DNA from: Gemmatimonadales bacterium
GTDB taxonomy: Bacteria > Gemmatimonadota > Gemmatimonadetes > Gemmatimonadales > GWC2-71-9
Reading direction: 5' to 3'
DNA: 64,000 bases
NCBI GenBank assembly: GCA_019637315.1
Contig: JAHBVU010000003.1
Location: 124,001-188,000 of the forward strand
Of this stretch, positions 8,332-45,839 are shown in pieces. Within the stretch, counting starts at the first letter, position 1, and each line of letters starts with the position of its first letter. Below the pieces are notes generated by a model. It searched no databases and had not been told where the DNA came from. It saw only the letters and a list, made by a program, of their open reading frames with translations. The position numbers were made by a program, and so were the translations under genes.

Positions 8332-8361
8332 TTGACAAGAGAAAGCCCGGGACAGTAACCT
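8332..8361 (+). promoter_or_regulatory. Promoter of tRNA-Ala
   Basis: A perfect TTGACA (8332-8337) is followed after 18 bases by TAACCT (8356-8361). A near-consensus -35 with a TAACCT-like -10 is typical of stable-RNA promoters. The tRNA begins 32 bases downstream. Confidence 0.7.
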
Positions 8362-8392
8362 TCCCCGATCCAGCGCACGGGTCGCGCTGCGC

Positions 8393-8465
8393 GGGGCCTT
8401 AGCTCAGTTGGGAGAGCGATTGCTTTGCAAGCAATAGGTCGCCGGTTCGATCCCGGCAGGCTCCA
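8393..8465 (+). tRNA. tRNA-Ala (anticodon UGC)
   Basis: The full cloverleaf can be drawn. The acceptor stem is GGGGCCT with AGGCTCC (one G-U pair) and the D-stem is GCTC/GAGC. The anticodon stem ATTGC/GCAAT carries loop TTTGCAA with anticodon TGC, and the T-arm is GCCGG-TTCGATC-CCGGC. The discriminator is A8465, and the CCA tail is not encoded (TTC follows). The gene stands alone, not in an rRNA spacer. Confidence 0.96.
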
Positions 8466-23503: not shown

Positions 23504-24729
<1,226 letters not shown>

Positions 24730-36671: not shown

Positions 36672-36838
36672 GAATGATAGTTCCAATAGTGCGGTCGGAA
36701 GCGAATCCAGGCAACCTTCGCCGCGGTCGATCCCACTGCATCCCATTACGCACGACGCCCGACGTTCGCTGAAGCCGAGAAGTTTCGCGACATTGGGGGG
36801 CCCTAAGCCCTGGAGCGGGCGGGCGTTACGTTTCCGAA

Positions 36839-38002
36839 ATGACAAAACTTGCCTCGGCCCGATCACAGTTCGACCTGCCAGACGACGTGACCTACCTCAA
36901 CTGCGCCTACATGTCACCGCTATCCCGGCGGGTCGCCCAGGCTGGCCGGGCGGGGATCGACGCCAAACAACGGCCGTGGGAGGTCACACCGGCCGACTTC
37001 TTTGTGACGGCCGATCGCGGCCGGGCCGCTTTTGCCCGGCTGCTCGGTACCCCCGCGACAGCGGACGACCTCGCCATCGTTCCGGCCGCAAGCTACGGCA
37101 TGGCGACAGCCGCGGCCAACCTGCCGCTCCGCCCGACGCAACGAGTCCTGGTGCTGGCCGAGGAGTTTCCCTCGACGATTCTCACCTGGCGAACCCGGGC
37201 AGAGCAGGTCGGCGCAGACCTGGTCACCATTCCGCGGCCGTCTGACGACGACTGGACCGCCGCCGTGCTCTCCGCAATCGACTCCCGTACCGCGGTTGCT
37301 GCGTTGCCGGCGTGCCACTGGATCGATGGGGTCCGACTCGACCTCGCGGTGATCCGGTCCCGCCTGCGTGAGGTCGGCGCCGCCCTGGTGCTCGACCTGA
37401 CACAGTCGCTCGGCGTGATGCCCTTCGACCTTGCCGCGGTCGATCCCGACTACCTCGTGGCGGCCTGCTACAAATGGCTGCTTGGGCCCTACAGCATCGG
37501 CCTGCTCTACGTCGCGCCCCGGCATCAGAACGGCACGCCGCTGGAGCACCACTGGTTCGGTCGCGCCGGCTCAGAGAACTTCAGCGCCCTGCTCGGCTAC
37601 CCGGAGCAGTTCCAGCCCGGCGCGCGCCGCTTCGACATGGGAGAACCGGCCAACTTTGCCCTGATTCCCCCTGCGGTGGCGGCGATCGAGGGGATCCTGG
37701 AGTGGGGCGTCGAGAACCTCTCGGAGACGATCGGCGCCTTCAACGCTGCAATTCTCGCACGCGCGGAGTCGATCGGCGCGACGGCCGTTGCAGCGCGCCT
37801 GCGGGCGCCGCACTACCTCTCACTGCGAGTGCCCGGCAGCACACCCTCGCTTGCCGAGCAGCTGGCGGCCGAGCGCGTATACGTCAGCGTGCGGGGAGGC
37901 GGAACTCTGCGAATCACCCCGCACCTCTACAACGAACCGCGTGACATCGAGCGGCTCTTTGCCGTCCTGGAACCAGCGATGCGCCGTTCCGGCCGCCCTT
38001 GA
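36839..38002 (+). CDS. Class V aminotransferase-fold PLP enzyme
   Basis: This 387-residue fold-type I PLP protein is related to cysteine desulfurases and kynureninases. N-terminal YLNCAYMSPLS, VPAASYGMATAA, an LVLDLTQSLG aspartate motif and the PLP lysine in AACYKWLLGPY are seen. No conserved cysteine-loop typical of desulfurases is evident, so the reaction is left open; isopenicillin-epimerase-like or selenocysteine-lyase-like annotation is common for this group. It ends where the trp promoter -35 begins, and no shared regulation is implied. Confidence 0.82.
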   Translation: MTKLASARSQFDLPDDVTYLNCAYMSPLSRRVAQAGRAGIDAKQRPWEVTPADFFVTADRGRAAFARLLGTPATADDLAIVPAASYGMATAAANLPLRPTQRVLVLAEEFPSTILTWRTRAEQVGADLVTIPRPSDDDWTAAVLSAIDSRTAVAALPACHWIDGVRLDLAVIRSRLREVGAALVLDLTQSLGVMPFDLAAVDPDYLVAACYKWLLGPYSIGLLYVAPRHQNGTPLEHHWFGRAGSENFSALLGYPEQFQPGARRFDMGEPANFALIPPAVAAIEGILEWGVENLSETIGAFNAAILARAESIGATAVAARLRAPHYLSLRVPGSTPSLAEQLAAERVYVSVRGGGTLRITPHLYNEPRDIERLFAVLEPAMRRSGRP

Positions 38003-38028
38003 CCGGGCACGGACTCGGGGTCTATACT
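37999..38028 (+). promoter_or_regulatory. Promoter of the trp operon
   Basis: TTGACC (37999-38004) and TATACT (38023-38028) are 18 bases apart, one mismatch from each consensus. The -35 overlaps the stop of the aminotransferase gene. Seven bases after the -10 comes the A of the leader-peptide ATG, so the transcript probably starts at the start codon. Confidence 0.8.
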
Positions 38029-38034
38029 CCCGCC

Positions 38035-38109
38035 ATGCAACATCTCGTGACGCTCAACCTCTGGTGGTGGCCCTGGCGCAATTCCGCGGTAGGGCGAGCA
38101 TCCGTTTGA
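38035..38109 (+). CDS. trpL: trp operon leader peptide
   Basis: A 24-residue leader peptide gene contains LWWWPW: Trp codons at 38062-38070 (three in a row) and 38074-38076. This is the sensor of ribosome-mediated attenuation: stalling at Trp codons during starvation alters downstream RNA folding. No ribosome site can exist, because the predicted transcription start is at or within a base or two of the ATG, so translation should be leaderless. It is followed by an antiterminator and a terminator, then by DAHP synthase and the trp genes. Confidence 0.9.
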   Translation: MQHLVTLNLWWWPWRNSAVGRASV

Positions 38110-38169
38110 GCTGATCGAGACCTGAACGATCGCAACCGACGAGCCCACCGCGATTCGCGGTGGGCTTTC
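38070..38169 (+). promoter_or_regulatory. trp attenuator (alternative hairpins and terminator)
   Basis: Terminator: AGCCCACCGCG (38142-38152) pairs with CGCGGTGGGCT (38156-38166) and is followed by TTC. Antiterminator: CGCGGTAGGGC (38085-38095), inside the leader gene, pairs with GCCCACCGCG (38143-38152) with one bulged A. Protector: GCCCT (38070-38074), overlapping the fourth Trp codon, pairs with AGGGC (38091-38095). Stalling at the Trp codons would block the protector and free 38085-38095 to antiterminate. This is the classical 1:2, 2:3, 3:4 layout. Confidence 0.85.
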
Positions 38170-38219
38170 GTGCGTTTGCAGCCTGCCGCAGGTATCGGGG
38201 TCAACCTGAAAGGCAGGCT

Positions 38220-39233
38220 ATGATCATCGTACTCAAGCCAGGCGCCTCGGCCGACCATGCCGACGAGCTGATCCGACAGATCGCGTCGCTTGGCCTCCGC
38301 CCCCTCCACATGCCTGGCAGCGAACGGGTCGTGCTGGGCGCTCTCGGCGACGAGCGGGAGCTCGAACGGCTGCAGCTCGACAGCCACCCCATGGTGGAGA
38401 GCATCAAACCGATCCTCGCCCCCTACAAACTCGTCGGACGCGACATGCACCCCGCCGATACCGTTGTCGACCTCGGTGGGGTGGCAATCGGCGGCGACCG
38501 GATCGTGGTCATTGCCGGCCCGTGTTCGATCGAGGGTCGGGAGCTGTTTCGCCAGAGCGCCGCAGCTGCCACTTCGGCTGGTGCGCACGCCCTCCGCGGC
38601 GGCGCCTTCAAGCCGAGGACCAGCCCCTACTCGTTTCAGGGCATGGGACGCCAGGGCCTCGAGATCCTGCAAGCCGTGTCGCGCGAACTCGGGGCGCCCA
38701 CCCTGACCGAGGTCGTCGACCTGGCCGACCTCGATCTGGTCGATCAGTACGCAGACGGCTTCCAGGTCGGCGCCCGGAACATGCAGAACTTCCGGCTGCT
38801 CCAGGCACTCGGCCAGCGTCGCAAGCCCGTTGTTCTCAAGCGCGGAATGGCCGCGCGAATCGACGATCTGCTGCTCGCCGCGGAGTACATCCTGGCCGAG
38901 GGGAATCCCAATGTGATTCTCTGCGAACGGGGTATCCAGGGATTCGACAGCACCACCCGCAACACGCTGGACCTTGCCGCCATCCCCGCGATCAAAGCAC
39001 GCAGCCACCTCCCTGTACTGGTCGACCCGTCGCATGGCACCGGAGTGCGAGACCTGGTCGCTCCGATGGCCAAGGCCGCCATTGCCTGCGGTGCGGACGG
39101 CCTGCTGATCGAGGTGCATCACGATCCGCAGGTCGCGCTTTCCGACGGCAAGCAATCGCTCTACCCCGACCAGTTCGCCGCCCTGATGCGCGAGCTCGGC
39201 CCGTTTGCCCGCGCAGCCGGACGGTCATTGTGA
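38220..39233 (+). CDS. 3-deoxy-7-phosphoheptulonate (DAHP) synthase, type I-beta
   Basis: This enzyme condenses phosphoenolpyruvate and erythrose 4-phosphate, the first step of aromatic synthesis. The 337-residue protein has an N-terminal ferredoxin-like regulatory domain (residues 1-70). The catalytic TIM barrel carries IAGPCSIEG, RGGAFKPRTSPYSFQG, the VGARNMQN motif, KRGMAA and LVDPSHGTG. Placed behind the Trp attenuator and before trpE, it makes entry of carbon into the pathway respond to tryptophan. ATG 38220 follows a weak AAAGG. The frame upstream runs through the terminator and is not coding. Confidence 0.95.
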   Translation: MIIVLKPGASADHADELIRQIASLGLRPLHMPGSERVVLGALGDERELERLQLDSHPMVESIKPILAPYKLVGRDMHPADTVVDLGGVAIGGDRIVVIAGPCSIEGRELFRQSAAAATSAGAHALRGGAFKPRTSPYSFQGMGRQGLEILQAVSRELGAPTLTEVVDLADLDLVDQYADGFQVGARNMQNFRLLQALGQRRKPVVLKRGMAARIDDLLLAAEYILAEGNPNVILCERGIQGFDSTTRNTLDLAAIPAIKARSHLPVLVDPSHGTGVRDLVAPMAKAAIACGADGLLIEVHHDPQVALSDGKQSLYPDQFAALMRELGPFARAAGRSL

Positions 39234-40822
39234 CTCCGCAAGCTCCGGCCGCCGGGACGGTACTCCCTCTGGTACGAAGGCTCGCCGCCACGGTCGATCC
39301 GCTGGCTCTTTATCGCACGCTCGCGGACGGCGGCGAGCGACCCCATACCTTCCTGCTCGAGTCGGCCGATGGCAGCGAGCGTCAAGGGCAGCGCAGTCTC
39401 ATCGGCGTCCGCGCGGCCGCTCGGATCGCGGCCGACCTCGAATCGGTTCGGATCGAGCCACTCTCGCCCAACGGCGCGGCGATTGCCGCACTGGTTGCCG
39501 CGCATCACCCCACCGCCTCCACCGATGGCAACGTCCTCGTTGTTCCGATCGCGCCAGTGCCCGCCCGAATCGACGAGCGCGAGCGCTTTCGGCACGGCAC
39601 CGCATTCGACGTTCTCCGCACCCTGACATTCGGAATCGCGCTGGCGGCAACCCCCAATCCCTGGGGTCACTTGCTCGTCGGGGCTTTCGGGTATGACGCG
39701 ATCGACTACTTCGAACGGTTACCGCTCGGCTATGCCGACCCGCTGGCCCAGCCGGTGCTCGAGTTCTGGATCCCCGATCGACTGATCGTGGTCGACCATC
39801 CGACGGCCTCCGTAACGGTGGTCGCAACCGCGTGGGGCGGAACCGGCTTCGATGCCAGATACCACGACGCCAGCCGGGCCGTCGAACAACTGGTAGCTGC
39901 CCTGACCAGCGTCGGCACAGCCCAGCACCGCGACGAGAGGGGTTCCCCGGACGCCGCCTTGGCAGACGTTTCCGTCGACCAGAGCGATGACGAGTTTGCG
40001 CGTACAGTTGCAGGTCTGCAGCAGCATATTCTGGCCGGCGACGTCTATCAGATCGTGCCGTCCCGGACCTTCTCGCTACCCTGCCCCGACCCGCTGGCCG
40101 CGTACGGCGAGCTGCGCGCTCGCAACCCGAGTCCGTACCTCTTCTACCTCCGGGGTCCGGAACGAGCCCTGTTCGGCGCCTCGCCCGAGACCTGCCTTCG
40201 CATTGATGCGGCGACCCGCACCGCAACCATCACGCCGATTGCAGGCACCGTCGGCCGCGGACGGGACGCGCGCGGCGCCCTCGACCTCGAGGCCGACGCC
40301 CGCGCCGAGGTGATGCTTCGCCTCGACGGGAAAGAGCTGGCCGAGCACCTCATGCTGGTCGATCTGGCCCGCAACGACATCGCCCGAATCAGTACCCCCG
40401 GAACTCGCGCCGTTACCCGGCTGCTCGAGGTCGAACGATACACCCATGTGATGCATCTCGTGTCCGAAGTGTCAGGTAGGCTCGCTCCGCATACGGACGC
40501 ACTGGAAGCGTACGCCGCCACCATGAACATGGGCACGCTGGTTGGCGCCCCCAAGGTTCGTGCCGCCGAACTCCTGCGACACTCCGAGGTCTCCCGTCGG
40601 GGCAGTTACGGCGGGAGCGTCGGGTACCTGCGCAGCGATGGCACCCTGGAAACGGCGATTGTGATTCGCTCTGCCGTCGTGGTCGACGGCATTGCCCACG
40701 TCCGCGCGGGCGCTGGTGTCGTGATGGACTCGGATCCGGCCGCGGAGGCCCTCGAAACCCGGCGCAAGGCGCGCGCCGTCGTCGAGGCGATCCGCCATGC
40801 GGAGGCCCCCGCCCATGTCTGA
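39230..40822 (+). CDS. trpE: Anthranilate synthase component I
   Basis: This 530-residue enzyme forms anthranilate from chorismate, with ammonia supplied by TrpG. The N-terminal FLLESADG segment corresponds to the LLES tryptophan feedback-binding motif. The C-terminal chorismate-binding domain has QIVPSRTF, FGASPETCLR, TPIAGTVGRGR and VDLARNDIARIS, then the GSVGYLRSDG motif. GTG 39230 overlaps the DAHP synthase stop as GTGA. A much longer upstream frame runs inside that gene and is ignored. Confidence 0.95.
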   Translation: MTPQAPAAGTVLPLVRRLAATVDPLALYRTLADGGERPHTFLLESADGSERQGQRSLIGVRAAARIAADLESVRIEPLSPNGAAIAALVAAHHPTASTDGNVLVVPIAPVPARIDERERFRHGTAFDVLRTLTFGIALAATPNPWGHLLVGAFGYDAIDYFERLPLGYADPLAQPVLEFWIPDRLIVVDHPTASVTVVATAWGGTGFDARYHDASRAVEQLVAALTSVGTAQHRDERGSPDAALADVSVDQSDDEFARTVAGLQQHILAGDVYQIVPSRTFSLPCPDPLAAYGELRARNPSPYLFYLRGPERALFGASPETCLRIDAATRTATITPIAGTVGRGRDARGALDLEADARAEVMLRLDGKELAEHLMLVDLARNDIARISTPGTRAVTRLLEVERYTHVMHLVSEVSGRLAPHTDALEAYAATMNMGTLVGAPKVRAAELLRHSEVSRRGSYGGSVGYLRSDGTLETAIVIRSAVVVDGIAHVRAGAGVVMDSDPAAEALETRRKARAVVEAIRHAEAPAHV

Positions 40823-41408
40823 AGGTCTCCAGGTAGTTCTGCTCGACAACTTCGACTCGTTCTCCTACAACCTGGTCGACGAGTTTGCCCGGCGCGGCCC
40901 GAAGGTGACCGTCTTTCGCAACGACGTGCCCGCCGATCGGATCCTCGAGCGGGCCGCCGGTACCCGGGCACTGGTCGTCATCTCTCCCGGCCCCGGCCAT
41001 CCGCGAGACGCCGGCTCCTCGCTCGAGGTGATTCGCCGGGCACTCGGCCGCATTCCGCTCCTCGGCGTCTGTCTCGGTCACCAGGCGCTGATCGAGGCCA
41101 CCGGCGGAACCGTCGTTGCGGCCGCGCTGCCTGTGCACGGCAAGGCGAGTCGCCTCACCCACGATGGTTCGGGCCTGTTCGAGGGTCTTCCCTCGCCGAC
41201 CGCTGTGGGCCGCTACCACTCGCTGGCGGCCGGGACCCTTCCAGCCGAGCTGGTGCCGACAGCTTCGGCGGACGGCGTGGTGATGGCCGTCCGCCATCGC
41301 ACCGCTCCGGCGTTAGGCGTTCAGTTTCATCCCGAGTCGGTTCTGACACCCGCGGGCGGACAAATGATCGACAACGTGATTCGGTGGGCTGCCGATGCTC
41401 GCCGCTAG
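40815..41408 (+). CDS. trpG: Anthranilate synthase component II (glutamine amidotransferase)
   Basis: This 197-residue class I glutamine amidotransferase supplies ammonia to TrpE. LLDNFDSFSYNLVDEF opens the protein. The nucleophile Cys86 is in LLGVCLGHQAL and the His-Glu pair in VQFHPESVLTP. The 8-bp overlap with trpE fixes ATG 40815. It is a separate gene, not fused to trpE or trpD. Confidence 0.95.
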   Translation: MSEGLQVVLLDNFDSFSYNLVDEFARRGPKVTVFRNDVPADRILERAAGTRALVVISPGPGHPRDAGSSLEVIRRALGRIPLLGVCLGHQALIEATGGTVVAAALPVHGKASRLTHDGSGLFEGLPSPTAVGRYHSLAAGTLPAELVPTASADGVVMAVRHRTAPALGVQFHPESVLTPAGGQMIDNVIRWAADARR

Positions 41409-42408
41409 CGTGCTCGATACGTTGAGTCGGCGGAGCCTCGACCAGACCGAGAGCTTTGCCGCCTTTACCGGACTGATTGCCGGCGACCTGACCGACATCG
41501 AGATCGCCGCCCTGCTCGGTGCGCTCAAGGCGCGCGGCGAAACGCCCGCCGAGATTGCGGGGGCGGCGCTGGCGCTTCGTCGGGCGGCTCTGCCATTTCC
41601 GAAGCCAGACTATCCGGTCGCGGACACCTGCGGCACCGGCGGCGACGGAGCCGGCACTGTCAACATCTCAACCGCATCGGCGTTTGTTGCGGCGGCCGCC
41701 GGCGTTCGGGTCGCCAAGCATGGCAACCGGGCCAGCTCCTCCCGCTGCGGCTCGGCCGATCTGCTGGAAGCCCTCGGCGTCAGGCTGGAAACGGCGCCAG
41801 ACACCGCCCGACGCTGCCTCGATCAGGCGGGCATTTGTTTCCTGTTTGCGCCGGCCTATCACCCGGGCGTACGCCGCGCCACCGGCGTTCGTCAGACGCT
41901 TCGAACCCGCACCGTGTTCAACCTGCTGGGTCCCCTGGCCAACCCGGCGCAGCCCGAGTGCCAGGTGATGGGAGTGTATGCGGAGCGGCTGGTGGTTCCG
42001 CTGGCCGAGACGCTGGGGATGCTCGGCTGCCGCGACGCCCTCGTCGTGCACGGGTCGGGCATGGATGAAATCGCCCTGCATGGCCCGACGGCAGCCGCCC
42101 GGCTGCATCGCGGCTCGGTGCAGCGTCTCACACTGACACCTGCCATGGCCGGGTGTGCGGTTGCTCCGGTTGAAGCACTGGCCGGTACCGGTCCCGAGGA
42201 GGGAGCCCGCTGGCTACGACGCCTGCTTGCCGGGCACGCACCGGCGGCTCACTTGGACGCCGTCGCGCTCAACAGCGGGGCGATGCTCTGGATTGCCGGG
42301 CTGGCCACCGATCTCCGCCAGGGCGCCGACGCGGCCCGGGACATCCTGGCCGATGGGCGGGCACTGCGCCACCTCGACGCACTGATCGAGTACTCCCATG
42401 GCGCTTGA
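41395..42408 (+). CDS. trpD: Anthranilate phosphoribosyltransferase
   Basis: This 337-residue enzyme transfers phosphoribose to anthranilate. The glycine-rich PRPP loop DTCGTGGDGAGTVNIST, AKHGNRASSSRCGSADLLE and the NLLGPLANPA motif are diagnostic. The start at ATG 41395 overlaps the trpG stop by 14 bp, and its own stop overlaps trpCF by 11 bp. Confidence 0.96.
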   Translation: MLAASVLDTLSRRSLDQTESFAAFTGLIAGDLTDIEIAALLGALKARGETPAEIAGAALALRRAALPFPKPDYPVADTCGTGGDGAGTVNISTASAFVAAAAGVRVAKHGNRASSSRCGSADLLEALGVRLETAPDTARRCLDQAGICFLFAPAYHPGVRRATGVRQTLRTRTVFNLLGPLANPAQPECQVMGVYAERLVVPLAETLGMLGCRDALVVHGSGMDEIALHGPTAAARLHRGSVQRLTLTPAMAGCAVAPVEALAGTGPEEGARWLRRLLAGHAPAAHLDAVALNSGAMLWIAGLATDLRQGADAARDILADGRALRHLDALIEYSHGA

Positions 42409-43786
42409 CGCGATTCTGGCCGCGAAGCGGCGGGACCTCGCGCGTCGCCAGGCGGCGCGCCCACTCAGTGATCTTCTCGAAGGTCTCCTGCCGTCCGATC
42501 GCGGCTTCGAAGCAGCACTCCGGTCCCGAACCCCGGCGTTCATCTTCGAGATCAAACCCGCCTCGCCATCGGAGGGCAAGCTGCGCGCGGTCGACGAGAT
42601 GGCTCCGGCCATCGACGCCTACGCTCGCCATGCCGATGCCGTCAGCGTGCTGACCGACGGTCCTTTTTTCGGCGGCTCGCACGCCCTGCTGGCTCGAGTA
42701 CGCGCCGCGGTGTCGCAACCGGTACTCTGCAAAGACTTCGTGCTCGACCCGTATCAGGTCTATGAAGCGCGTCGCGCGGGGGCCGATGCAGTTCTGCTGA
42801 TGTTGTCGATCCTGGACGATCGCACCTATCGAGCCTGTGCCGACGCGGCCGGTTCGGTCGGTATGGGCGTGCTGACCGAGGCGCACACGGCCGGGGAGGT
42901 CATCCGGGCCAGGAACCTGGGGGCCAGAGTCATCGGCATCAACAACCGCGACCTCAGCACCCTCGAAGTCAAGCTCGAAACGACGGCGGCGTTGGCTGGT
43001 CTTGCCGGCCCCGATGCTCTGCTGATCGCAGAGTCCGGCATTCGTACCCGCCGCGACGTTCGCTCGCTGGCCGATACCGTCGACGGGTACCTGATCGGCA
43101 CCGCGACCATGCGCTCGACGAACATCGACGCGACCGTCAAGGAGCTGGTCTACGGATCGACCAAAGTCTGCGGACTGACCCGAGCCCGCGACATCCTCGC
43201 AGCATCCGCCGCTGGCGCGACCCATGGAGGCTTCATCTTGGCGCCGGAATCGCCGCGGTGCCTCAGTCTTCGCCTCGCACGCGAGTTGCGCCATGCCGCT
43301 CCGCTCGCATGGGTCGGCGTGTTCGTCAACGACGCGCCTCAGCGAATCGCAGAGGCAGCCGACCTGCTCGGCCTGGCGGCCGTGCAGCTCCATGGCGAAG
43401 AGACCGACGCGGAGCTCGAGACCCTCAGACCGCTGCTGCCATCCCAATGCGAAATCTGGAAGGCCATCCGGATTCGTGACCGGCTGCCCCCGTTCCCCGC
43501 ACGAGCAGATCGCCTGCTGCTGGACAGCTACCACCCCGCTCGTCGCGGCGGAACGGGACAGGCGTTCGACTGGACCCTGCTCGGGCCGGAGGCCGGGTCG
43601 GGCCGGCTGGTGCTGTCCGGCGGAATCGCCGCCGACAATCTCGACCGGGCCCACGCAACCGGGATCGACTTTCTCGACATCAACTCGGGCGTCGAACTCT
43701 CACCCGGCATCAAGTCCCTCGCCGCACTCGACCACTTCTTTTCCATCCGGCGCAGCTGCCCGGATCGCCGGAGAACTGCTCAATGA
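42398..43786 (+). CDS. trpCF: Indole-3-glycerol phosphate synthase / phosphoribosylanthranilate isomerase fusion
   Basis: This single 462-residue protein joins two TIM barrels. Residues 1-245 are IGPS ([48 protein letters not shown]). Residues 255-450 are PRAI ([47 protein letters not shown]). The fused order C then F is the enterobacterial arrangement; many phyla keep trpC and trpF separate. The trpB start overlaps its stop by ATGA. Confidence 0.95.
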
Positions 43787-44958
43787 AACTTGCCACGCGT
43801 TTCGGCAGCTACGGAGGAACCTTCGTGCCCGAAATTCTGATGCCGGCGCTCGAGGATCTCGAGCAAGCCTATCTCGATCTTCGGAGCGACCCTGCCTTTC
43901 AGACGGAGCTGGCCGATCTGCTGGCCACCTATGCGGGACGACCAACCCCTCTCTACCGCTGCCGCCGTTTCGGCGCCGATGCTGGAGCAGCCATCTGGCT
44001 CAAGCGTGAGGATCTGCTGCACGGCGGCGCCCACAAGACCAACCAGGCCCTTGGCCAGGGCTTGCTGGCCCGGAGGCTCGGCAAGCGACGGCTGATTGCC
44101 GAGACCGGGGCCGGGCAGCATGGGGTGGCCACTGCATTTACCGGCGCACGCCTGGGCCTCGAAACCGTGATCTACATGGGTGCCAAGGACGTGGAGCGGC
44201 AGCAATCCAACGTCGAACGGATGCGCCTCTTCGGGGCGAGCGTCATACCCGTCAGCGCAGGAAGCGGCACCCTCAAGGATGCCATCAATGAAGCCTTACG
44301 GGACTGGTCGGCCTCGTATGATACGACGCACTATCTGCTCGGAACCGTGGCTGGCCCCCATCCGTTCCCGACCATGGTGCGCGACTTTCAGCGTGTCATC
44401 GGTGACGAGGCGCGACAGCAGTTCCTGGCCGCCGAGGGAGAGCTGCCCGACATCGTGATTGCTGCGGTCGGTGGTGGCTCCAATGCGATCGGCATCTTCA
44501 CCGCGTTCCTGGACGACCCGATCGAACTGCTCGGGGTCGAACCCGCCGGACGCGGCCTGCACACCGGCGCTCACGGGGCCACCTTGCAGCGGGGCACGGT
44601 GGGCGTTCTCCACGGCGCCCTGACACTCGCGCTCCAGGATGACGATGGACAGATCCAGGAATCGCATTCGATCTCCGCAGGCCTCGACTATCCCGCGGTC
44701 GGTCCCGAGCATGCGTACCTGCAGGAGCGGGGCCGGGTCCGCTACACCGGCTGCGACGACGCTCAGGCAGTTGCCGCCTACCAGGATCTCGCTCGGGAGG
44801 AAGGCATCCTGCCCGCACTCGAAAGCGCTCACGCTCTCGCCGCCGCCCGTCTGCTCGGCCCCGACGGGCGCCGCCGACGCATCCTGGTCAACCTGTCGGG
44901 GCGAGGCGACAAGGACCTCGCCACGGTCCAACGCTGGCTCTCGGAGCAATCCGCATGA
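43783..44958 (+). CDS. trpB: Tryptophan synthase beta chain
   Basis: This 391-residue PLP enzyme makes tryptophan from indole and serine. [16 protein letters not shown] begins the protein. The PLP lysine is in [27 protein letters not shown] lies in the channel region, and the phosphate loop is VGGGSNAIG. It overlaps trpCF upstream and trpA downstream, both ATGA. Confidence 0.96.
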
Positions 44959-45839
44959 ATACCCGGTACGATCGCATGTTTGCGCGGCTTTCGGCTCGCG
45001 GCGAAGGCGCGTTCATTCCCTTTCTCACCCTCGGCGACCCCGATCTGGCAACCTCGGCGCGGCTGCTCGCCGCATTGCTTGCTGCGCGGGCAGATGCGCT
45101 CGAGCTTGGCCTCCCGTTTTCCGATCCGGTGGCCGACGGCCCGGTCATCCAGGCCTCAGCCCGCCGTGCGCTCGCCTCGGGCACCCGGGTGGCAGATTGC
45201 CTGGCGCTGATCGCGACGGTTCGGCGCGCGGCGCCCGAACTGCCGATCGGCCTCCTCGTTTATGCCAACCTGGTGGTCCGCCGCGGTGTCGGGACCTTCT
45301 ATCGAGAAGCCGCGCAGGCGGGCGTCGACTCAGTACTGATTGCCGACGTCCCGCTCGCCGAGGCCGATCGGTTCGGAGAAGCGGCCGCAGCAGCGGGCGT
45401 TGCCGCCGTCCTGATTGCCCCGCCCAACGCCTCCCCATCGCAGCTGGCAAGGATTGGACGGCAAAGCCGAGGCTACACCTATGTCACCGCTCGGGACGGG
45501 GTGACCGGAGACGATCGAGCACCGGCCGCCGACCTCCGCGCGCGGCTGGCCACGCTGCGGCAGGCGCGTGCCGCACCGTCCGTCGTCGGGTTTGGTATTT
45601 CGACTGCTGACCAGGTTCGCTCCGCGCTCGCAGCAGGCGCTCGGGGCGTCATCGCGGGCTCGGCGCTGATCCGGCGGATCGAGGCCCAGCTCGACCAGCC
45701 TGACAGGCTGGTCGCTGACGTCGAGGCCTTCGCAACGGAACTCAAGGCGGCGACCCGCGGGGGGCACTCGACCAGCGAACGCGACGCGTATCTCGAGCAC
45801 GTCGGGATTGTCTCGGGGAGCCGATCGGCCGACTATTAA
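44955..45839 (+). CDS. trpA: Tryptophan synthase alpha chain
   Basis: This 294-residue TIM-barrel lyase releases indole from indole-3-glycerol phosphate. [15 protein letters not shown] contains the catalytic Glu-equivalent region and [18 protein letters not shown] the catalytic Asp. The phosphate-binding part is [28 protein letters not shown]. It is somewhat longer than usual because of a Ser/Arg-rich C-terminal tail. It is the last gene of the operon and is followed by a hairpin. Confidence 0.95.

Follow-up and report, generated by a model that had tools for sequence, protein, structure and literature searches.

In the trp attenuator of E. coli, tandem Trp codons in a leader ORF, the 1:2/2:3/3:4 logic of alternative RNA helices and a terminator ahead of the first structural gene are combined with a long 5' leader that carries a Shine-Dalgarno site, and with a TrpR operator. 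Other attenuator leaders dispense with the ribosome site: the mycobacterial poly-cysteine ORFs described by Canestrari in 2020 are reportedly leaderless. In S. meliloti, the 5' end of the small RNA rnTrpL coincides with the trpL ATG (PMC7298713), Ribo-seq shows that trpL is translated as a leaderless mRNA (PMC10117765), and trans-acting roles have been shown for both the RNA and its peptide, peTrpL (PMC7298713, PMC10117765). Leaderless and Shine-Dalgarno-carrying trpL::egfp fusions accumulated similarly under tetracycline (PMC7298713), which argues, in that organism, against sensitivity to leaderless-specific factors. TrpL1 and TrpL2 of S. lividans, located before trpE and trpS, respectively, are transcribed leaderless (PMC8079986). 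Finally, formation of the C. glutamicum ilvBNC leader was reported in 2000 to proceed without a ribosome binding site (cited in PMC4046766; see also PMC11857589).

The locus considered here lies in a 64,000-nucleotide stretch of a Gemmatimonadales genome (hereafter the window, meaning the whole stretch that was analysed). The region ahead of its aroF-trpEGDC(F)BA operon is very likely a ribosome-mediated attenuator whose leader peptide is read from a leaderless mRNA, a reading drawn from sequence comparison. The features that compose it are the following.

37999-38004, + strand: -35 element, TTGACC (direct sequence reading and promoter scan)
38023-38028, + strand: -10 element, TATACT, separated from TTGACC by an 18-nt spacer (promoter scan)
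38029-38034, + strand: CCCGCC, the 6 nt between TATACT and the leader ATG (38035-38037)
38035, + strand: transcription start as predicted, at the A that opens the leader ATG (conserved geometry, 7 nt past TATACT)
38035-38109, + strand: Trp leader peptide ORF of 24 codons, MQHLVTLNLWWWPWRNSAVGRASV and a stop codon (ORF translation; homologous leaders in eight other species)
38062-38070 and 38074-38076, + strand: leader Trp codons, in the WWWPW stretch 38062-38076
38070-38079, + strand: attenuator region 1, pairs with region 2 (90% of the 1:2 cells paired in nine species)
38085-38095, + strand: attenuator region 2, pairs with region 1 (via 38086-38095) or with region 3
38143-38152, + strand: attenuator region 3, antiterminator with region 2 and 5' arm of the terminator
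38156-38165, + strand: attenuator region 4, 3' arm of the terminator, followed by the interrupted T tract TTTCGTGCGTTT
38220-39233, + strand: aroF-type DAHP synthase gene, the first structural gene of the operon (NF006421, 457 bits)
39242-45839, + strand: trpE, trpG, trpD, trpC(F) fusion, trpB and trpA

The closest likeness is to S. meliloti, where the ATG of a Trp leader ORF is also the RNA 5' end (as predicted here), attenuation is ribosome-mediated and termination yields a leader RNA that is in turn a small leaderless mRNA; unlike the 14-aa S. meliloti peptide, which precedes trpE(G) only, the present leader precedes aroF and the entire trp operon. With S. lividans it shares a Trp leader that is leaderless, here by prediction (TrpL1 has a WWW run), a high-GC genome and a TANNNT leaderless class, whereas the S. 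lividans targets are monocistronic and the phylum is different. The ilvBNC leader and the poly-cysteine ORFs are likewise read without a ribosome binding site, although they concern other amino acids and another phylum. The locus has the tandem Trp codons, the helix logic and the terminator before the first gene in common with E. coli trp, and departs from it by a predicted 5' UTR of 0 nt and by aroF as the first gene; the contrast drawn by the first-pass annotation with the E. coli model, where a ribosome site is present, is thus a fair one. A WWW leader ORF and a terminator were also observed ahead of a related DAHP synthase gene at two Ferrimonas loci (L008 and L010), so that aroF is probably under Trp attenuation in Gammaproteobacteria too.

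The prediction of a leaderless start originates in the promoter. The first-pass annotation placed TATACT six bases before the leader ATG, and reading of the sequence bears this out: the distance is exactly 6 nt. A scan of 36800-38300 gives no sigma-70-like site other than TTGACC/TATACT, which matches at 10 of 12 positions (expected number 0.2 from shuffled sequence, and 0.0 for the 901-base region). The pattern TTGAC-N19-TANNNT-N6-ATG occurs once without mismatch in the 64-kb window, at the trp leader, and twice when one mismatch is allowed, versus 0.09 expected. Position 38035 is the sole purine 5-8 nt past TATACT, and the two bases that precede this A are both pyrimidines. The TGA inside TTGACC doubles as the stop codon of a PLP-enzyme gene that runs in the same direction and ends at 38002, 32 nt ahead of the leader ATG. 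TACGTT ends 6 nt ahead of the ATG of this upstream gene (window position 36839), which may be leaderless as well. Elsewhere in the window, TTGACA-N18-TAACCT, some 30 nt ahead of a tRNA gene (8393-8465; together 8332-8465, + strand), is a probable tRNA promoter, and 23782-23898 on the + strand strongly matches the ALIL pseudoknot (Rfam RF01497, E 5e-25), which serves IS3-family insertion sequences as their -1 frameshift element.

Conservation of this geometry was assessed in nine species, the source genome (G000) and G001, G002, G003, G005, G007, G022, G033 and G038. A homologous Trp leader stands ahead of the same aroF in all eight further Gemmatimonadales species, seven of which came from a protein search, by which a close aroF is present in 8 of the 288 genomes of the order. 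The eighth, G001, came from a search of 395 genomes with the pattern TGGTGGTGG, which also picked up those known leaders that have three TGG codons in tandem; the G001 leader is located at a contig end, with the terminator and the start of aroF also visible. A TTGAC-N-ATG-N-TGGTGG pattern run over 288 genomes gave mostly chance matches and was left out of the counts. No Trp leader was found at the more distant aroF loci L005-L007. TTGAC is invariant in the nine species, and its distance to the ATG is 36 nt in seven of them, 35 in G005 and 38 in G007, while mean identity of the intervening spacer across species is only 34%: the spacing is kept while the sequence drifts. Since TTGAC is also kept in G001, G033 and G038, where it does not overlap an upstream stop codon, it is no by-product of that codon.

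The -10 element is clear in five species (G000, G001, G002, G007, G038), ambiguous in G003 and weak in G022, G033 and G005. In eight of the nine species, 6-7 nt separate the best-fitting or runner-up hexamer from the ATG, and in G007 the distance is 9 nt; the A of the ATG is the seventh base past the hexamer in G000, G001, G022 and G005, and, under the 17-nt spacer, the eighth in G002, G003, G038 and G033. The predicted 5' UTR is accordingly 0-1 nt in most species and about 3-4 nt in G007. This stub, together with the weak or ambiguous -10 elements of G003, G005, G022 and G033, indicates that strict leaderlessness is not universal. In none of the nine species does the stretch past the -10 element leave space for a Shine-Dalgarno site. 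The source assembly yielded no 16S 3' end; the 16S of relatives carries GGATCACCTCC, and the anti-Shine-Dalgarno sequence is therefore normal.

Zheng et al. (2011, PMC3160421) recognized leaderless mRNAs by a TANNNT -10 element some 12 bp ahead of the start codon. The trp leader has such an element at about this distance, with no Shine-Dalgarno site in the predicted transcript, and its start codon is ATG in all nine species, in keeping with the AUG expected of leaderless mRNAs. The same signal was sought in 864 kb of the source genome, about 22% of the 3.9-Mb draft, with 642 gene calls made by a simple GC-phase method. TANNNT ends exactly 6 nt before 19 candidate ATG starts, whereas the background count is 4.6 (mean at distances 11-30; Poisson P 4e-7, uncorrected for the 31 distances), and GTG starts in this sample show no peak. 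This peak gives evidence that leaderless starts form a regular minority class in the source genome, with the spacing found at the trp leader. Counts are also raised at 7, 8 and 9 nt (8, 6 and 12 versus 4.6); the excess at 9 nt possibly corresponds to genes with 3-nt 5' UTRs. A further motif, TTGACG...CTA(G/C)NNT-TCGCC(C)-ATGCG, recurs in several genera ahead of what is apparently one orthologous gene, probably another conserved leaderless gene (genomes G065, G068, G071, G077, G080, G082 and G084; loci L139, L142, L144, L150, L151, L153 and L156). In the open-access literature, to which the search was confined, no paper tying Gemmatimonadota to mapped leaderless starts was found.

The proposal of the first-pass annotation that transcription starts at about the A of the ATG thus agrees with the promoter geometry, with its retention in nine species and with the genome-wide class. 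That the trp leader mRNA is leaderless, with its 5' end at this A, is a strong prediction. The annotation's further suggestions, that 70S ribosomes would initiate on this leader and that the switch could respond to factors acting on leaderless translation, are conjectural, and the S. meliloti fusions under tetracycline lend the latter no support.

As in other Trp attenuators, trp genes are preceded by a small leader ORF in which Trp codons stand in tandem. Two other starts for this ORF were rejected: an in-frame TTG at 37999, which sits inside the promoter (within the -35 element), and a GTG at 38047, a codon that is not conserved. The leader RNA folds with a minimum free energy z of -4.6 into the 1:2 and 3:4 helices, and the segment bounded by region 2 and the first terminator arm folds as the 2:3 antiterminator. 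Consensus folding and pair counts in the nine species show that the three helices are mutually exclusive and conserved; the 2:3 cells form standard pairs in 87% of cases, and a shift of the alignment by 1-3 columns lowers this to 29-55%. There is little covariation, since region 2 has to fit both of its partners and is nearly invariant; for 2:3 it is nil, and the support for this helix is conserved pairing. The terminator stem is a perfect, GC-rich 10-bp helix, and the T tract that is interrupted in the source genome reads TTTTT in G001, G002, G033 and G038. A terminator scan of the 901-base region did not report this stem.

In the proposed mechanism, a sigma-70-type promoter would place the transcription start at the A of the leader ATG, and a ribosome would bind the 5'-terminal AUG without Shine-Dalgarno contact and then read the leader of 24 codons. 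Under a shortage of charged tRNA-Trp, the ribosome would stall at WWWPW and mask region 1, so that regions 2 and 3 pair, the terminator is blocked and the operon is transcribed. With ample Trp, or with no ribosome loaded, 1:2 and 3:4 would form and transcription would end at about 38170. Since the terminator would be favoured without initiation, the leaderless start would have to be efficient enough for derepression.

The rival explanations differ in where the transcript begins and in whether the leader regulates anything. It is very improbable that the main trp transcript starts further upstream, from another promoter or by read-through from the PLP-enzyme gene, with initiation on a leadered mRNA being coupled or independent of a Shine-Dalgarno site. 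The upstream gene is indeed co-directional and close enough for read-through to add leadered transcripts, a homologous gene occupies this position in G001, G002 and G003, and a weak anti-Shine-Dalgarno match (-5.2 kcal/mol) exists upstream of the leader ATG. This match is at a poor distance, however, lies before the predicted start and is not conserved among relatives, and the distance from TTGAC to the ATG is kept where the upstream gene differs or stops elsewhere (G038, G033, G001). Moreover, a second promoter would be needed for transcription to begin over 15 nt before 38035, and the sigma-70-like scan revealed none in 36800-38300. A start only 1-5 nt upstream of the ATG, which would leave a stub of a 5' UTR unable to hold a Shine-Dalgarno site, appears improbable: such a start would suit the four relatives in which the -10 element ends 7 nt before the ATG, the 9 nt of G007 and the raised genome-wide counts at 7-9 nt, but in the source genome the spacing is exactly 6 nt and pyrimidines occupy the two positions ahead of the A.

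That there is no attenuator at all, the ORF being a chance Trp-rich one ahead of a constitutive operon, is scarcely credible. The interrupted U tract of the source genome would fit this possibility, as would the lack of any match to the Rfam covariance model of the enterobacterial trp leader at E up to 10. Against it, the Trp runs, the three alternative helices and the position before aroF-trp are kept in nine species. The attenuator with a leaderless leader peptide is therefore retained as the preferred reading. An improbable extension of it is that the 0-nt leader is a selected regulatory input: because the leader could be entered only by leaderless initiation, Trp supply and the state of the ribosome pool would together set the operon, and the RNA released at the terminator would act in trans, as in S. 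meliloti.

Leaderless trp leaders are already established in S. meliloti and S. lividans. The Gemmatimonadales case extends the set of Trp leaders that dispense with a ribosome binding site to another phylum and contributes a nine-species comparison, which shows that the distance from promoter to start codon is preserved despite drift of the intervening sequence.
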